Source: a virus. From it: a stretch of 20,501 nucleotides of DNA. How positions within the stretch are numbered: position 1 is the stretch's first letter; each line of letters starts with the position of its first letter. This document shows positions 3,471 to 10,250 of this stretch, piece by piece. The DNA lies in IMG/VR virus record IMGVR_UViG_3300034198_015398, positions 1 to 20,501 of that record; one strand, given 5' to 3'. A model generated the notes under the pieces. That model was not told where the DNA came from. It made no database searches and was given only the letters and a program-made list of their open reading frames with translations. The position numbers were made by a program, and so were the translations under genes.

Positions 3471-5885
3471 TCAACCTGCCGTAACCGGGCGCGGAGGGTT
3501 CGCAATCGTCGAAACAACCTGCCCCTGACCTTTGTTTTGAACCTCAAACTGCTCCTGAAGCATCTTCTGCTTCGCAACAGATGTTGAAGGAATACCGCCA
3601 ACTCCTTCTCCTCCGGTCGCGCCTACGGCTGGCATGATGTCCGGCGGGGGCGGCGTAGCCATACCCGAAGTGATGTGCGCGATGGCTTCCTTGTAAGCCT
3701 GCTTGTACTTCGCGATCATCGCAGCGTCAGCTCCCTTCGCCTCCGCAGCTCCGATGTGTTCTGCAAAATGTTTCATCGCGGAGGTGAGCGGCTGCACCAT
3801 CTCCGGCGGCAAAACTCCGGCTGGCGCATTCGCGATGACAGGCATGAGCTTCATCGCCATCGTATCGAGGTGGATCGGATCGTTGTCTCGCGGAGAGACA
3901 GGCACGTCCTGTCCGGCGATGATTGCCTGCAATTCCAGCACCTGCTGTCGCGTCGCCTCGATTGCAATTGCCTCGACCTGATCCTTTGGAAGAATTACAG
4001 AATTCGCGATGGTCGTTCCAACTTTTCGGGACCAATCCAGCTTGATGAGTTCGTCCTGATTGATGTTTGGGTTGCCGAAGTACCGCTGAATCAGCGTGTC
4101 CAGAACGATGTTGTCCTGCGGTGTGGTGTCGCGCAAAAGCTCCGACGCTGGAGAGTAAGCCATCAAGAGGATGTCTGCCGGAGGGATGTTCTTTTCGATC
4201 ATCTCAAGACAGCACTGGATTGCGTCTTCGTCCAGATGCGTTGGAACCTCGAAAGGAACTAGGAATGGAGGAAGATCCATCGAACTCCTTTCAAACGACT
4301 CCACGATCTCCCTACGCGCCCATACGGCTCCGGCCTGAGTTTTCCGGGCAATATCCAATTGCAATTTCAGGTCCGCAGCAGCCTTGAGATGCTCTGGATG
4401 GCAGATTCCTCTCTGCATTCGCTCCACCGACTGCGAGAACTGCCTCTGGAAGCGCATTAGGATGCCTTCCTTGAGTTGATTCTCGATGGCTGCGACACGA
4501 TTGATCTCCGAAGCCGTTTTTGCACTCCCGGCAGTCAAAGGCGCAGTCGGCAAGAATGTCCCGACCTGAATTTCAGCGAGACCTGAAACGAACTGATCGA
4601 GCCGCAGGAAATCACCTACATCAGCCGGGAGACTTTGCGGGACTACCTCGTACCCTTCAGCCACGAACGCCACCGGGTGGTGAACAGTCAATGGAGCTGC
4701 CCCGACCTTCGCATTCGGAGTCTTCTTCAGAAGCAGAAGCCCTTTGATGTATGAGTTATCGATTACAAGGTTGCGCGCCTTATCGACTGCGATGTGCGTG
4801 TTGTACAGGTCTCGTCCTGCTCCACGCGAGGACATCAGCCCTCCGCTTCCGACCTCGATGGAGAACAGTGCGAGCGTTTCCGACATCGCGTTGTATCGAT
4901 CAACCTGCGTGCAGATTTCGTCGCCAGATTTATCGTCGAACAGGTATCGGCTGATCTTGCCGTGCGGCTCGCGCACAAGGATCTCCCCCAGTTCAACATA
5001 TCTTGCGTCGTTTTCATACGAGGCTCCGTAACTGCCTTCGCGCAGCCAATCCTCGTACCTGCGAGCATCCTCGTCAGCGTCCAACGTGCGTCCGGCAGGG
5101 ATTGCGTTGTTGATCGCTTTGACAAGGTTGTTGATGTGCCACCCGGCTGCGGCAGACAGTTCCGGGTCTTCAAGGAACGGCAAAAGCTCTGCGATTTGAT
5201 AACGACGTTTGCGCCCCCAAATCGGCGTCTGATCGGCCTGCTGCGGAGTTTCAATTGAGAAGAAAGTGTAATCCTGCCTTAGGAACTCCGGCTTCCAGTC
5301 ACGCAAGTCGTCCCAGCACAGACCGCAGAATCCGAACACGACATTTTCGTGGACTACCTGAGCCACCAAATCGTCGAACCCTTTCCACGACCTGATGCAT
5401 TTCGTGATGGCTTCCCGAAAGACCTTCGTCTTGTGTTCAGCGTCGATTGAATCGACAGGGTACATCGCGTAGGACAGAGTCTGCGCCATCTCCACAACCT
5501 GCTTGAACGGTGGTTGAATTCGCGAACACATCATCGACAGGAACCCGGTCGGACGATTGCTCCGCCAGTTCTGACCCATCGATTCCAACTTTTTGGGCGC
5601 GTAGGGAGGCTCAAGGTTGAGCTTCTTCTGGATCAACTGGTTCTTCCGGTTCCGCTCGACGTTCTGCTGTTTTAAACGCCTGTACGCACTGTGCGCCTGC
5701 CTCGCGTCTTTAAACGTCCTGCGGACCTGCAACGTGTCCGGGTTGACGGTCTCTGTGTTTCCTTGATCTGGATCGACGACGTCGAGGTTCAGAATCCGGG
5801 CCTTGTCGTGATCGCTGGCAATGCGTGCAGCTTTGTTAGCATACGCATCAGTAATCGACGGAGGAAGAGGCTTTACGTCAGACAT
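3471..5885 (-). CDS. Portal protein, putative (head-tail connector)
   Basis: An 804-aa protein starting MSDVKPLPPSIT at ATG 5885. A TTG 21 nt upstream would overlap the preceding gene and is less likely. Size, position downstream of the large terminase and upstream of the scaffold-like gene, and an even alpha-helical composition fit a large portal, the ring through which DNA enters the head. An N-terminal TDAYANKAARI segment and a C-terminal Pro/Gly/Gln-rich tail (from about residue 750) are visible. The helical stretch DWSRKVGTTIANSVILPKDQVEAI and the Ala/Met-rich segment after it resemble the crown region of podovirus-type portals. There is no membrane segment. The next gene starts 9 nt downstream. 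No catalytic motif is expected, so the call rests on size, order and general resemblance. Confidence 0.7.
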   Translation of the reverse strand: MSDVKPLPPSITDAYANKAARIASDHDKARILNLDVVDPDQGNTETVNPDTLQVRRTFKDARQAHSAYRRLKQQNVERNRKNQLIQKKLNLEPPYAPKKLESMGQNWRSNRPTGFLSMMCSRIQPPFKQVVEMAQTLSYAMYPVDSIDAEHKTKVFREAITKCIRSWKGFDDLVAQVVHENVVFGFCGLCWDDLRDWKPEFLRQDYTFFSIETPQQADQTPIWGRKRRYQIAELLPFLEDPELSAAAGWHINNLVKAINNAIPAGRTLDADEDARRYEDWLREGSYGASYENDARYVELGEILVREPHGKISRYLFDDKSGDEICTQVDRYNAMSETLALFSIEVGSGGLMSSRGAGRDLYNTHIAVDKARNLVIDNSYIKGLLLLKKTPNAKVGAAPLTVHHPVAFVAEGYEVVPQSLPADVGDFLRLDQFVSGLAEIQVGTFLPTAPLTAGSAKTASEINRVAAIENQLKEGILMRFQRQFSQSVERMQRGICHPEHLKAAADLKLQLDIARKTQAGAVWARREIVESFERSSMDLPPFLVPFEVPTHLDEDAIQCCLEMIEKNIPPADILLMAYSPASELLRDTTPQDNIVLDTLIQRYFGNPNINQDELIKLDWSRKVGTTIANSVILPKDQVEAIAIEATRQQVLELQAIIAGQDVPVSPRDNDPIHLDTMAMKLMPVIANAPAGVLPPEMVQPLTSAMKHFAEHIGAAEAKGADAAMIAKYKQAYKEAIAHITSGMATPPPPDIMPAVGATGGEGVGGIPSTSVAKQKMLQEQFEVQNKGQGQVVSTIANPPRPVTAG

Positions 5886-5890
5886 AAAGT

Positions 5891-6499
5891 TCAAATGTTT
5901 AACCAACAGTTCTCTGGTAGCCCGCTTGCCTTTATGTGTTCATCTCGATCCAAGAAAATCGCAGCCCGGTTGTCGTGACGCTGGATCAGGCATCCACCCA
6001 AAACCCGACTTGAATGCGTGTCACGTCCCTGTCGGACATTTGCAGTCAACCTGTTGGTTGCGGAGATGCAGGCAGAACATCCGCCTTGCCAGTTGTAGTT
6101 TTTCTCGCAATTGCGACACGTCTTCGCACGCTCTTCAGCTAACTCATCCGTAACGTAATTAACTGGCTTGCTCGATTGTAGGATGTTTTTGGCCCACGTT
6201 TGAATATCGTCCAGCAACTCCGACTGCATTGTTGGCTTGTTGACGCTAACAACTGTCACAGAGTCAACGCCGTGACAAAAATGAGGCCAATTCCCGCAAA
6301 TGTATGCGGAAATGTCTCCCTCCACGTCTCCGATTGGTAAATGATTCTCAGCCCTGTAATGCTGAACAGCTTTTACAAGCTCGTCGTACGAGAATGAGTC
6401 GATACGCACATCTCCGTCGATGTAGTGCCAACCAGTCGGAGGAATTAGGCCAATGATAGGTTTTGCCACGGCTGGGTCGTAAATTATTTGAATGCCCAA
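5891..6499 (-). CDS. Cysteine-cluster protein of unknown function
   Basis: A 202-aa protein read from TTG 6499 (MGIQIIYDPAVAK). No ATG is available upstream before the stop of the previous gene at 6506. The N-terminal half is ordinary globular sequence with a YICGNWPHFCHG segment. The C-terminal half has a metal-binding pattern, CRNCEKNYNWQGGCSAC, and a later GGC and ENC, suggesting a zinc site. It lies 5 nt before the portal start and just after the ParB-like gene, probably in the same transcript. I do not recognise the family. The TTG start is uncertain. Confidence 0.7.
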   Translation of the reverse strand: MGIQIIYDPAVAKPIIGLIPPTGWHYIDGDVRIDSFSYDELVKAVQHYRAENHLPIGDVEGDISAYICGNWPHFCHGVDSVTVVSVNKPTMQSELLDDIQTWAKNILQSSKPVNYVTDELAEERAKTCRNCEKNYNWQGGCSACISATNRLTANVRQGRDTHSSRVLGGCLIQRHDNRAAIFLDRDEHIKASGLPENCWLNI

Positions 6500-6505
6500 A
6501 GCAAG

Positions 6506-7003
6506 TTAAGGATCGAACGAGTGGTGACATTTAGGACAGATCACCTTCTCTTTCGGCTGCGATTCTTTCTCTTCATCCGGCTCCGGAGGAGGATTAGGTG
6601 TGCCGATCAACTCCATCAACTGTTCGTCAGAAAATCCAAGGCAGTTGCCTCCGTAGCCCTTCTCCATCAACTCCTCTACCTCCACAGCGAGCATATCCCA
6701 GTTCCACGTCGCGTTCAGCCCAAGTTGATTGTCCACGATGACGTAGGCGCGTTTCTGCGTCTCCGATAGGTGTCCAAGCCTAATGCACGGCACGTCCTTT
6801 ATCTTAAGCTTCCTCGCAGCCAGAACCCTTCCGTGCCCGGCAATGATGGTGCCGAAGTCGTCGATCAGCACAGGGTTGACGAATCCAAACTCCTGAATCG
6901 ATGCAGCAATCTGCGCCACCTGTTCCTCGCTATGCTCACGCGAGTTTCGGCAGTATGGGATCAACTCATCGATGTTCAGAACCTCTACTGTTAAATCCTT
7001 CAT
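6506..7003 (-). CDS. ParB/Srx-fold protein with C-terminal zinc ribbon
   Basis: A 165-aa protein. Residues 1-95 carry the ParB N-terminal fold: LNIDELIPYCRNSREHSEEQ, SIQEFGFVNPVLID, then the nucleotide-binding GHGR at 56-59 followed by LAARKL. LSETQKRAYVIVDNQ follows. The tail is acidic and Pro-rich (about 135-153) and ends in CPKCHHSF, a possible zinc knuckle. Phage ParB-like proteins of this length are often next to or fused with a DNA methylase; none is visible here. It lies in the head cluster, after the tRNA and the tandem RNA-like repeats, with the start 14 nt past the last repeat. Possible roles are DNA binding or nuclease activity, or CTP binding as in true ParB. No parA is present, so a segregation role is not supported. 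Confidence 0.88.
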   Translation of the reverse strand: MKDLTVEVLNIDELIPYCRNSREHSEEQVAQIAASIQEFGFVNPVLIDDFGTIIAGHGRVLAARKLKIKDVPCIRLGHLSETQKRAYVIVDNQLGLNATWNWDMLAVEVEELMEKGYGGNCLGFSDEQLMELIGTPNPPPEPDEEKESQPKEKVICPKCHHSFDP

Positions 7004-7016
7004 GTTAAAAATGTCC

Positions 7017-7085
7017 GGGCTTTTATGATGTTACCCGGCGGGTGCTATGTTTAACTAGAGCGAAACAAGCTCCGCATCAATACCC
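7017..7085 (-). ncRNA. Structured RNA-like element, copy A of a tandem pair
   Basis: A 69-nt unit just before the ParB-like gene. In the sense strand the ends GGG and CCC pair, TGATG (7079-7075) pairs with CATCA (7030-7026), and inside lie a 5-bp arm GGAGC/GCTCT with a 7-nt loop, a weak second arm, and ACCC/GGGT around GCC. It is 51/69 identical to copy B without gaps, and the changes are confined to positions 17-50 and the last base. It may be a cis-acting leader or a processed RNA. Calling it an RNA is inference from pairing and conservation. Confidence 0.45.
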
Positions 7086-7105
7086 TATTGTTGTGTTTGG
7101 TTGGC

Positions 7106-7174
7106 AGGCTTTTATGATGTTACCTGCCGGGCGTATGAAATAACCAGAGACACCCATTCTCCGCATCAATACCC
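7106..7174 (-). ncRNA. Structured RNA-like element, copy B of a tandem pair
   Basis: Same length and ends as copy A, 20 nt upstream of it and 10 nt downstream of the tRNA. The first arm is GGAGA/TCTCT against GGAGC/GCTCT in copy A, a clean compensatory exchange of C-G to A-T. The 7-nt loop differs (ATGGGTG), while the outer 16 and 18 nt are unchanged. The third arm has one C-A mismatch here. The sequence after the closing stem reads GCCA. It is not a standard tRNA, since no T-arm sits against the 3' strand. Confidence 0.45.
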
Positions 7175-7184
7175 AAATCCAAAT

Positions 7185-7260
7185 TGGTTGCGGGAGTGGG
7201 ATTTGAACCCACGATCTCATCGTTATGAGCGATGCGACTTAACCGCTTGTCCATCCCGCG
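7185..7260 (-). tRNA. tRNA with CAU anticodon, initiator-like (fMet type)
   Basis: The sense strand starts CGCGGGATGG and ends CCCGCAACCA, with the CCA encoded. The acceptor has a C1-A72 mismatch followed by six pairs. The D-stem reads GAC/GUC with A11-U24. The anticodon arm is CAUCG-CUCAUAA-CGAUG and the T-arm is GUGGG-UUCAAAU-CCCAC. C1-A72 and A11-U24 are marks of bacterial initiator tRNA. The third mark, three G-C pairs at 29-31/39-41, is absent (UCG/CGA). It could start translation, elongate as Met, or, if modified at C34, read AUA. It lies between a small late gene and the two structured repeats. Confidence 0.93.
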
Positions 7261-7597: not shown

Positions 7598-9475
7598 CTA
7601 CTCAGAGAAATCAATAAACTCCATAGATCCATCTATGACACTGCGCAACTCTTTTTCTCTGTGAACCTCTTTTTTAGGTTCATTCATAGTAGCTGTTGCC
7701 CCTCCCCGCTGCCTAAGTAGGAACACCATCAAACTTAATGAATCCAAAGCATCGGGAGATTTGCTGCGCGTGCGTTTGCAAAACTCACCTTTGCTCTCCA
7801 CCCGCACCATTCCCTGTCCCTTCTGCTTATAGCGTCGCGCTGTAGCCTGACGAATCAACTCCTCGTTTCGGAACCCGGGTGCGATCTTCAGGTAGTCGAA
7901 CTCAATGTATTTCGACAACCCAAAGATCAACTCTGTGACAACTCCGTTGTACAACTCAGACGCTTTCTGCGAATCGTCACCAAGGATGTGTGTGTCCGTC
8001 GCTGCCCAACTGTAGTTCACGCCCATCACCTCCTTCCCGAACAGAGTGCAGAGCGAGTCGTGGATGCCTGCACCGTTCCCAGTCCGATCCACGCACAACC
8101 ACCCGGGCGAGATCCTCATCTCTTTGCAGAATCGCATGATCTCCTGCGTCTGCTCCAGCGTCGCACGCTTCGCAAACGGGATCTGGTTGTCGAGCTGCAA
8201 TACCGTCCGGTGCTTTTTGAACGGGATGAACTTGCCTGACTGCGGTGTCCAGCCGTCAGACAGCCCAAAACGTCCGTAACTGCACAGCACCTGATCTACC
8301 CCTTCCAAAGCCAAATCGAACGCGGCTAGAGGCACTACCGGGCCTACAAACCGCACTGTGCCAATCGCATTGTCCATCATGCTTGGGCTGATGATGCCCA
8401 TCGAGATCCCTTCCTCGGGGAACCACCCGCGAGCCATCGTCATCGCCTCTGCCGTCCTGCCTCGGCTCATGTACGACATGAAACCCTCATAAGTCTGCAA
8501 CCCCGGGAACACGATGCGCCGCTCTACGACGTTCTCGCACCGGGCTGCATCCAGCCGCAGGACGTGATAGCCCAGCTTGCTCTCCCACTCGAAATCCTCC
8601 TCGCAGTCAACGCCGCCCCAGCCGTGGATCGGCTCGCACCGCTGCGCGTAATCCGAAGTCCTGTCGCGAGGGTTGCTGGCAGCGAAAATCTTGATGTGGC
8701 CGTGGAGAGTCTTGTCCGCAGTCGAGAGGATGTTGTTCACGCCTTCCCAGACGCCAACAGGAACCTCCTCCGCTTCGTCCAGAACGACGTGCGTCCGGCT
8801 CAGCCTGCCCCATTTGTGATGCGCCTGACCCGGCCGAGGTATCGGGTGGAATCCACGCAGCGTACCGTGACCGCTCTCTCCCTTTGGAATGGCGACGAGG
8901 TGAATGCCCTGCTTGCTGTCATCGGTGGTCTGAATGCTGCTCGCCTTGTCATCCTGATCGGTGAGCGGACGCACCAGCGCAGTGCGGTGGAACGTCTTGA
9001 TGTTCGCAAAGATGTTCCGCTCAGCGTGTTCACGGGTTAGCGATACCACCTTGATCGAGGTGAATGCCGGGTCGCGCCACCAGTCGAGGTAGAACCAAGC
9101 CGCAGCCCCGAATGACTTGCCCATCGCCCCGGCTCCCTGAATCAGCAGCCTGTCATGCGCGAACAGGCACCTCCAAGTGTCCCGGGAGGATAGTGGTCGC
9201 CAGTCGTAGACATCCGGCCCCCATAGCAGGGTTGCAGAAGCCTCAAACTGATCTGCGTCGAGAAGCGACTGCGTCCACTGCCTGACGATTGACTCAGCCA
9301 CCGGGATGGTGAGTTGGCTCAGGCCGGACGGTACAGAGCGCAGCACCTTGGTCAGGATGTAGTGCGCCGCGTAGAGGATGCCTGTCTCCTCGTCCCTGTC
9401 TGCCTCCCTGCGTGCCGCTGTGGCGTGTTGGAGGTACAGAGACTGCGTTGTCGTCTTGGGCGGTTTTACGGGCAT
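7598..9475 (-). CDS. terL: Terminase large subunit (packaging ATPase and nuclease)
   Basis: A 625-aa protein from ATG 9475 (MPVKPPKTTTQS), 1 nt after the stop of the preceding gene. The ATPase half has a Walker A GAGAMGKS (114-121), a Walker B VVLDEAEE (230-237) and an AASNP coupling motif (265-269). The nuclease half, of RNase H fold, shows AAFDLA with Asp387, WLCVDRTGNG with Asp463, and SPDALDSLSL with Asp575/578 as metal ligands. The length is near normal for the family, somewhat long. It drives DNA into the proheads and cuts the concatemer. Upstream are the small terminase and a PD-(D/E)XK-like protein. No frameshift or intein is seen. Confidence 0.95.
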   Translation of the reverse strand: MPVKPPKTTTQSLYLQHATAARREADRDEETGILYAAHYILTKVLRSVPSGLSQLTIPVAESIVRQWTQSLLDADQFEASATLLWGPDVYDWRPLSSRDTWRCLFAHDRLLIQGAGAMGKSFGAAAWFYLDWWRDPAFTSIKVVSLTREHAERNIFANIKTFHRTALVRPLTDQDDKASSIQTTDDSKQGIHLVAIPKGESGHGTLRGFHPIPRPGQAHHKWGRLSRTHVVLDEAEEVPVGVWEGVNNILSTADKTLHGHIKIFAASNPRDRTSDYAQRCEPIHGWGGVDCEEDFEWESKLGYHVLRLDAARCENVVERRIVFPGLQTYEGFMSYMSRGRTAEAMTMARGWFPEEGISMGIISPSMMDNAIGTVRFVGPVVPLAAFDLALEGVDQVLCSYGRFGLSDGWTPQSGKFIPFKKHRTVLQLDNQIPFAKRATLEQTQEIMRFCKEMRISPGWLCVDRTGNGAGIHDSLCTLFGKEVMGVNYSWAATDTHILGDDSQKASELYNGVVTELIFGLSKYIEFDYLKIAPGFRNEELIRQATARRYKQKGQGMVRVESKGEFCKRTRSKSPDALDSLSLMVFLLRQRGGATATMNEPKKEVHREKELRSVIDGSMEFIDFSE

Positions 9476-9476
9476 C

Positions 9477-10250
9477 CTAGGAGCGTTTAGAGGTGGGTGG
9501 ATTACTGCGTCCGAAGATGGTTTTGCGCCGGATATCCTCTGGAAGTCCTTGGACGAATATCCTGAGCCGGGCGCTGTAGTCTCCACCCAGCTCCCCGAAC
9601 ATGATGCCGACATCCCCTCCCTGAGACGCGATGTCCTTAGCGTGCTGGAGCTTCTCTTCCATCGTCTTGAGGTGAGCCGGGAATGCACTGACCCTGTCGG
9701 GACTGTAGATGGCAGGCTTAGCGGACGGGTGCGCTGCGGCTGATGCCGTTGCCGTTGCCGATGCCGTTGCCGATGCTGGGGCCGGATATCGTTCAGGGGC
9801 GGATGATGAAACGTGCCGGAACAGCTCGACAGGGATGTGGACTACAGGCTCCTCGTCCTGATTGTCGCCCCGGTCAGTCCTTCCTCCGGGTGCAATGCGA
9901 GGAGGGTTGGTCAACTTTGTCAGCTCGACCCACCTGATATCCTTCCCTGAGTCCCAGCCGTACAGCAGGATCAGCTTGCAGCCTGTACGCTCTGCCAGCG
10001 TGATAGCCTCTGCCCACTTGGCCGCGCCCAGAATGGCAGTCGGATACCTGTCCGCCGGGTTGGAGCGGATCTTAACCTCACCGAAAGCTGTGACCTCGTC
10101 CAAGCCGCCATCGCCCTCCCTGACGACTGCAAAATCGACCGGGTATCTCGGTGGCAGTTCGACCGTATCGAGGCCGTACCGGGCTGCAAACGCCGCCACA
10201 GCAGCCCTCTCGCGTTCCTTGTCCTCCGGAGTCTCGTAAATCGCCCTCAT
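9477..10250 (-). CDS. PD-(D/E)XK-like nuclease domain protein between terminase subunits
   Basis: A 257-aa protein from ATG 10250 (MRAIYETPEDKERE), with GGGAGG four nt upstream. The N-terminal domain (about 1-115) has the Asp and Glu-x-Lys pattern of PD-(D/E)XK nucleases: YPVDFAVV with Asp39 and FGEVKIRS with Glu58 and Lys60, followed by helix and strand TILGAAKWAEAI and KLILLYGWD. Residues 150-180 form an Ala/Ser/Thr/Pro linker encoded by GCCGTT/GCCGAT repeats. The C-terminal helical part (190-257) ends basic. Its start overlaps the stop of a 26-aa membrane peptide. Position suggests a packaging or DNA-processing role. It could also be a defence-evasion or host-DNA nuclease. Activity is not proven by motifs alone. 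Confidence 0.65.
   Translation of the reverse strand: MRAIYETPEDKERERAAVAAFAARYGLDTVELPPRYPVDFAVVREGDGGLDEVTAFGEVKIRSNPADRYPTAILGAAKWAEAITLAERTGCKLILLYGWDSGKDIRWVELTKLTNPPRIAPGGRTDRGDNQDEEPVVHIPVELFRHVSSSAPERYPAPASATASATATASAAAHPSAKPAIYSPDRVSAFPAHLKTMEEKLQHAKDIASQGGDVGIMFGELGGDYSARLRIFVQGLPEDIRRKTIFGRSNPPTSKRS
9743..9782 (-). repeat. Short in-frame repeat encoding an Ala/Ser/Thr linker
   Basis: GCCGTT and GCCGAT hexamers repeat on the plus strand and give ASATASATATASA in the protein. Phase is kept, so this is a flexible linker rather than a DNA-level element. Confidence 0.7.

Follow-up and report, generated by a model that had tools for sequence, protein, structure and literature searches.

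A tandem pair of pseudoknotted elements beside a phage tRNA points to a new family of small structured RNAs

The window analysed here, a viral DNA stretch of 20,501 nucleotides considered at its full length, carries between a tRNA gene and a ParB-like gene two direct repeats that almost certainly belong, as adjacent copies, to a new family of structured RNAs. Covarying homologues are present in at least 100 contigs and Rfam 15 holds no match, which bears out the suggestion of an earlier note, made from the letters alone, that a new phage RNA class might be found here. As judged from sequence, the novelty is that of an RNA family without an Rfam relative; no new biochemical activity is claimed.

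Results

The two copies and their surroundings

The gapless repeats (7017-7085 and 7106-7174, plus strand) share 51 of 69 letters; when the 300 bases of this region were shuffled 30 times, no gapless self-match exceeded 34. The two invariant blocks described earlier do exist, at positions 2-19 and 54-69 of the repeat rather than at 1-16 and 51-68, with differences at positions 1, 52 and 53. The elements proper span 7014-7085 and 7103-7174, slightly beyond the repeat units of the earlier note, because the hairpin denoted P3 runs past their start. As previously noticed, the pair is flanked by a tRNA gene and a ParB-like gene. The former, on the same strand as the elements and directly upstream of them, is a tRNA-Met(CAT) with an initiator-like C1-A72 mismatch (7185-7260, minus strand), and the latter, directly downstream, codes for a ParB-N domain (6506-7003, minus strand; PF02195, phrog_620). 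ParB, the tRNA and DUF7303 make up the gene context of the pair, and the tRNA and every nearby gene are on the minus strand, like the RNA.

The tRNA-proximal copy (copy 2; 7103-7174, minus strand) has the 72-nt core GGGTATTGATGCGGAGAATGGGTGTCTCTGGTTATTTCATACGCCCGGCAGGTAACATCATAAAAGCCTGCC, which shows covariation and matches R1, a covariance model built from four sequences, with 93.5 bits. On the minus strand, its P1 helix joins GGGT (7171-7174) to GCCC (7129-7132), and the 5' strand of its pseudoknot, TGATG (7164-7168), which covaries in relatives, pairs with CATCA (7115-7119) inside the P3 loop. The P2 hairpin, CGGAGA-7 nt-TCTCTG (7145-7163), is connected to the 3' strand of P1 by the linker GTTATTTCATAC (7133-7144), of which the initial GUYA is near-invariant across the family, and the P3 hairpin, GGCAGG-TAACATCATAAAAG-CCTGCC (7103-7128), has six pairs that all covary. 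The ParB-proximal copy (copy 1; 7014-7085, minus strand), with the 72-nt core GGGTATTGATGCGGAGCTTGTTTCGCTCTAGTTAAACATAGCACCCGCCGGGTAACATCATAAAAGCCCGGA, matches R1 with 91 bits. It comprises, on the same strand, P1 (GGGT, 7082-7085, paired with ACCC, 7040-7043), the pseudoknot 5' strand TGATG (7075-7079, paired with 7026-7030), the P2 hairpin CGGAGC-7 nt-GCTCTA (7056-7074) and the P3 hairpin (7014-7039), which contains the pseudoknot 3' strand (7026-7030). A run of five Ts (7007-7011, minus strand) lies 2 nt past P3 of copy 1, and similar T runs also follow the single copies of two related contigs, L147 and L148.

Two features of the neighbourhood deserve mention in their own right. An unpaired 1:72 position is a hallmark of initiator tRNAs; the phage tRNA-Met genes have C1-A72 in the window and in L148 (3087-3161) and, by our reading, A1-A72 in L147 (4165-4235), but they lack the three G-C pairs that the anticodon stem of bacterial tRNA-fMet has. 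The window also codes for a terminase-like protein (7598-9688, minus strand; weak phrog_2 match) that has 184 relatives among viral contigs from the environment. A tblastn search with this terminase yielded no match among 50,697 phage records, and its relatives can be taken to mark a phage group without cultured members.

Fold, covariation and strand

Each copy combines P1 (4 bp), the P2 hairpin (6 bp), the P3 hairpin (6 bp) and a 5-bp pseudoknot that connects the P3 loop with the P1/P2 junction. The 5' part of the consensus reads P1 (4 bp)-AW-PK5' (5 nt)-P2 hairpin (6 bp)-GUYA...CAU..-P1', and is followed by P3 (6 bp), with its 14-nt loop UAA-NNNCA-UAAAAG in which the five central letters are PK3', and by P3' at the 3' end. 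Since P1' abuts P3 directly and PK5' abuts P2 directly, two coaxial stacks, locked together, are likely. The P2 loop has 5-8 nt in most members and varies in sequence and length. In three members, the P2 arm is some 20-35 nt longer (L478, 2304-2416; L523, 2313-2421; L470, 2339-2436), and the P2 tip thus appears to accept inserted sequence and would lend itself to tagging. About 10% of members have the entire element closed by an optional outer stem, P0; with at least 9 Watson-Crick pairs, this stem is present in 8 of 82 members vs 0.6 expected. A second pseudoknot, GUUA:UAAC, hinted at by the copies of the window, was discarded, as GGUCA and GGUAA variants break it.

Covariation carries the case for this fold. 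Already with four sequences, 95.2% of cells were paired and 9 of 21 pairs were doubly changed, which none of 500 shuffles reached. In an alignment of 65 distinct rows, 96.0% of cells were paired vs 71.4% after shuffling, and 331 cells were changed on both sides vs 91.5. All four helices covary, including the six P3 pairs, and the pseudoknot is paired in 100% of cells, with CG, UA, AU and GC versions. It has at least eight sequence versions, the 5' strand being TGATG, TGACC, TGTGG, TGCGG, TGTAG, TGCGT or others. Shifting the alignment by 1-3 columns made pairing fall to 35-47%. Verrucomicrobiota members vary pairs that are fixed elsewhere, with a CGCGG:CCGCG pseudoknot and CG or AU replacing GC in P1. 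Near-invariant unpaired letters are A, GUYA, UAA and UAAAA; the search pattern itself fixed GG, A, TG, CG, TAA and CATAAAA, and invariance at these positions is therefore partly a product of selection. UGGU and the A after P2 are near-invariant outside the search pattern, and the members found solely by model or synteny have mostly the same letters, with a few changes.

The same alignment identifies the strand. When read on the minus strand of the window, the 65 sequences have 158 G-U cells vs 6 A-C cells, which designates this strand as that of the RNA; 96.0% of cells are paired on it, compared with 84.8% on the opposite strand, and P2 holds one invariant G-U pair. The three-arm fold proposed earlier for the plus strand was not borne out: in folding energy the copies did not surpass shuffled sequences (z -0.47 and +0.74), and their minimum-energy folds differed from each other. 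More generally, energy folding of single sequences, to which the pseudoknot is invisible, gave no z-score below -1.35 on either strand.

Homologues and their distribution

A search with a minus-strand pattern yielded the first homologue, L148 (L011 in that search), in which the order is that of the window, with tRNA-Met, one element a few bases later and the start codon of ParB; its P2 (CCGA/TCGG) and P3 (GTTGGG/CCCAAC) are compensatory variants of those in the window. In a terminase search, 80 relatives were found, the closest of which, L147 (88% identity), has the element behind the same tRNA, followed by a different gene, with a TGACC:GGTCA pseudoknot instead of TGATG:CATCA. Model R1 then found L216/L217, with a third version of the pseudoknot (TGTGG:CCACA) and no tRNA nearby. 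A covariance model from related phages, the approach recommended in the earlier note, thus did find homologues with paired changes. In the viral collection, a pattern with free pairing letters returned at least 119 stretches, and R1 confirmed at least 111 matches among pattern loci and known loci. The total amounts to at least 118 distinct sequences, at least 84 of which are left after redundancy reduction. An exact 17-mer scan of viral contigs gave 26 matches, 25 of which were due to chance or coding sequence, and the loose pattern TATTGATG..TAACATCATA gave mostly chance matches.

The element is carried by phage contigs of 8-210 kb from fresh and sea water, by a few bacterial metagenome-assembled genomes (MAGs) and, in sparse copies, by Verrucomicrobiota genomes. 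No cultured phage had the element in BLASTN searches of 50,697 phage records, for which the window region and five relatives served as queries. Among 84,980 species genomes, a strict pattern retrieved five MAG contigs. The phyla of the Akkermansiaceae, Altibacter and Acidobacteria MAGs were taken as Verrucomicrobiota, Bacteroidota and Acidobacteriota. The R2 search found the element in 3 of 289 genomes from the phylum to which the Akkermansiaceae MAG belongs and in 8 of 384 from one class of that phylum, and nothing new in 295 and 246 genomes from the phyla of the Altibacter and Acidobacteria MAGs, respectively. This is only a suggestion that Verrucomicrobiota are the main hosts. Two bacterial copies are near prophage-type genes (RecT, integrase), and two others are surrounded by cellular genes, on contigs 222 and 323 kb in length, one near sucA/sucB-type genes and genes for EF-Tu, ribosomal protein L1 and a Na+/Pi cotransporter, the other near a TrmA-like gene. 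Such chromosomal copies are sporadic within their families. In L552, the element (7152-7229, minus strand) is enclosed by a long outer stem and located 106 nt upstream of the Na+/Pi cotransporter gene (5301-7046, minus strand). In L554, the chromosomal element (6879-6956, minus strand) is found inside a terminator-like stem, the outer strands AAGAGAAA/TTTCTCTT being followed by a T run.

Copy number and gene context

Exactly one copy was found in each of the 45 positive virus records, 8-210 kb in length, a count that is a lower bound as many records are fragments. Tandem pairs are rare: of 58 loci returned by a tandem scan, only L444 and L437 were true pairs besides that of the window. Three recurrent contexts were observed. 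The element is found behind tRNA-Met in the window, L147 and L148; behind an HTH-HNH gene, with some 700 nt without a clear gene next; or between a coiled-coil gene and the gene for DNA polymerase A. Most homologues have no tRNA nearby. P1 often starts 4-9 nt past the upstream stop codon, and the element has the same direction as the longest ORF within 2 kb in 39 of 50 cases upstream and in 43 of 50 downstream.

Among terminase relatives, 8 of 50 have the element, and the records of the other 42 have none. When DNA polymerase relatives were compared, it was found just upstream of the polymerase gene at 17 loci, which belong almost exclusively to the closest relatives; three relatives (G006, G102, G124) have a single copy placed elsewhere, and most others are without it. 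The presence of one copy elsewhere in some relatives and its absence from others indicate that the element is accessory and movable. In the DNA polymerase clade, a strong terminator is often located 0-13 nt past the element, just before the polymerase start, and related phages without the element retain both terminator and polymerase. Over the family, terminators of -15 kcal/mol or below are found downstream of 21 of 69 members, vs 2 in shuffles, 1 upstream and 7 on the opposite strand, and T5 is found within 28 nt downstream of 14 of 82 members vs 3.2 expected. P3 itself was rejected as a uniform terminator, since U-runs trail only a minority of members.

Two observations relate to these neighbours themselves. 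An HTH-HNH gene directly precedes the element in L290 (4600-5184) and in its clade (L300, L293, L352, L354, L368 and L330), and the homologues of this gene in the cultured phages Weasels2 and Gundel_1 overlap annotated tRNA genes, as if the HNH homing-type nuclease favoured stable-RNA loci. In L474, L475 and L479, strong terminator-like hairpins part the DNA polymerase A gene from the preceding one, with or without the element, which suggests that in this clade the polymerase may be a regulated or separate transcription unit.

Comparison with known RNAs

The Rfam search called for in the earlier note, run with permissive filters on the window pair, matched no family to the element even at E<=10; the only matches nearby were tRNA and tRNA-like antisense models, which recognise the tRNA itself. 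For L290, Rfam 15 gave only chance-level matches, and for the natural tandem L444 it gave none. In such natural pairs, circularly permuted forms can be read across the joint. We found no published description of this RNA among the open papers searched; it might be an unnamed entry in large phage-RNA catalogues.

Several known RNAs resemble the element in part. In ZTP (pfl) riboswitches, the helix order is P1, junction, P2 hairpin, P1' and P3 hairpin, and the P3 loop pairs with the P1/P2 junction. The element shares this loop-to-junction topology and the frequent proximity of a terminator; however, it has no match to ZTP at E<=10, its invariant letters differ, and it is a mobile single copy of phages without purine-gene context. 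Type III antitoxin RNA repeats, such as ToxI, are tandem pseudoknotted RNAs also known from phages. In contrast, no toxin gene was identified beside the window pair, and the element is usually single, folds differently and has no Rfam match. The put RNA of HK022, a structured phage antitermination RNA of about 70 nt upstream of terminators, is similar in size and also has terminators nearby, but it is not known to have a pseudoknot, unlike the element, and there is no sequence match. Pistol ribozymes are phage-associated and of similar size, and pair a hairpin loop with the junction of P2 and P3 (PMC4604425). However, the loop-bearing hairpin (P1) is 5' in pistol and 3' in the element, which would make the latter a circular permutation at most, and the pistol model RF02679 gave no match, even across the natural tandem pairs. 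The CUGANGA and GAAA boxes of hammerhead ribozymes, the former described in PMC10085705, are absent from the consensus, and no hammerhead, permuted forms included, matched in Rfam. GOLLD, first seen downstream of Met-tRNA (PMC12286853), and ROOL are likewise phage or prophage non-coding RNAs without an assigned function, often near tRNAs, but they are unrelated, are hundreds of nucleotides long and gave no model match, whereas the element has about 72 nt and is usually not near tRNAs.

Discussion

Our tentative proposal, which we put forward with some reserve, is that this tandem of a new fold exemplifies an accessory, stand-alone RNA that acts in trans. It is inferred from a copy number of one at any genome size combined with changing neighbours, from the location of the element at the ends of genes or tRNAs, and from the fact that close relatives do without it. 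The RNA might be made as the tail of the transcript of an upstream phage gene or tRNA and then trimmed to its compact, nuclease-resistant fold. Its target in trans would then be a host factor, the host being probably often a member of the Verrucomicrobiota. Phages would carry the element as they do tRNAs, in one movable copy that ends a transcription unit.

Other readings have to be weighed against this one. The processing element considered in the earlier note is one possible role. A new ribozyme class, small and self-cleaving, which would cut polycistronic phage transcripts and free the tRNA or the downstream gene, is a rather unlikely reading, yet it has several points in its favour. The RNA is compact, with about 72 nt, a pseudoknot and near-invariant unpaired letters, it is intergenic, often 4-9 nt past a stop codon or directly behind a tRNA, and single copies at variable places are also compatible with this role. 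Published criteria for ribozyme candidates are 50-80 nt, conserved nucleotides, pseudoknots or junctions, and covariation (PMC10085705), all of which apply here, and pistol, likewise phage-associated, has a similar loop-to-junction pairing. Nevertheless, known ribozyme models do not match, a cleavage site cannot be named, and ten motifs chosen on similar criteria showed no cleavage when assayed (PMC10085705). The more specific version of a putative ribozyme with a pistol-like pseudoknot and a 3' loop hairpin, widespread in aquatic phages and uncatalogued as its carriers are uncultivated, appears doubtful as well. The element might alternatively be a cis-acting leader or read-through element, be it an attenuator, a put-like antiterminator or a riboswitch, that would control the transcription or translation of the next gene, an unlikely role in our opinion. 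Its location directly upstream of DNA polymerase A at 17 loci, the strong intrinsic terminator often 0-13 nt behind it and before the polymerase start, the chromosomal copy 106 nt upstream of a Na+/Pi cotransporter gene and the ZTP-like topology all argue for it, and riboswitches too can occur as tandem copies. A cis role would suit the clade with DNA polymerase downstream, but it does not suit the HNH clade, in which no clear gene follows for some 700 nt. The downstream gene is not constant, relatives without the RNA still have terminator and polymerase, one copy is found even in 210-kb genomes, and no Rfam riboswitch matches. An accessory stand-alone RNA fits better than a riboswitch.

The remaining readings are less probable still. 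A role in stabilising the mRNA or tRNA precursor upstream, as a 3'-end element or a block to exonucleases, would account for the compact pseudoknot, the few nucleotides that separate it from stop codons or tRNA 3' ends and the downstream terminators of one clade, but a general stabiliser would not be expected to occur only once per genome and to be lacking in close relatives, and we hold this role to be improbable. It is very improbable that the element works as folded single-stranded DNA, as an origin, packaging or recombination site; a single copy per genome and proximity to replication or packaging genes in several phages would suit this role, but the excess of G-U over A-C cells, the invariant G-U pair of P2 and the co-directional flanking ORFs point to RNA. 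As for degenerate tRNA-derived elements or a chance direct repeat, adjacency to a tRNA and an arm of 5 bp with a 7-nt loop, read in the earlier note as an anticodon arm with U33, had suggested the former. That arm was read on the wrong strand; it corresponds to P2, whose loop differs in length and sequence between members. Searches with tRNA models left the element unmatched, and its pseudoknot covaries in at least 100 contigs, most without a tRNA; these covarying homologues refute both ideas, to which we attach next to no probability.

The RNA family is compact, covaries very strongly, has a defined pseudoknot and more than 100 natural variants, and is absent from Rfam. One movable copy per phage, together with its presence in Verrucomicrobiota, suggests that it may be an accessory phage tool for a little-studied group of hosts.
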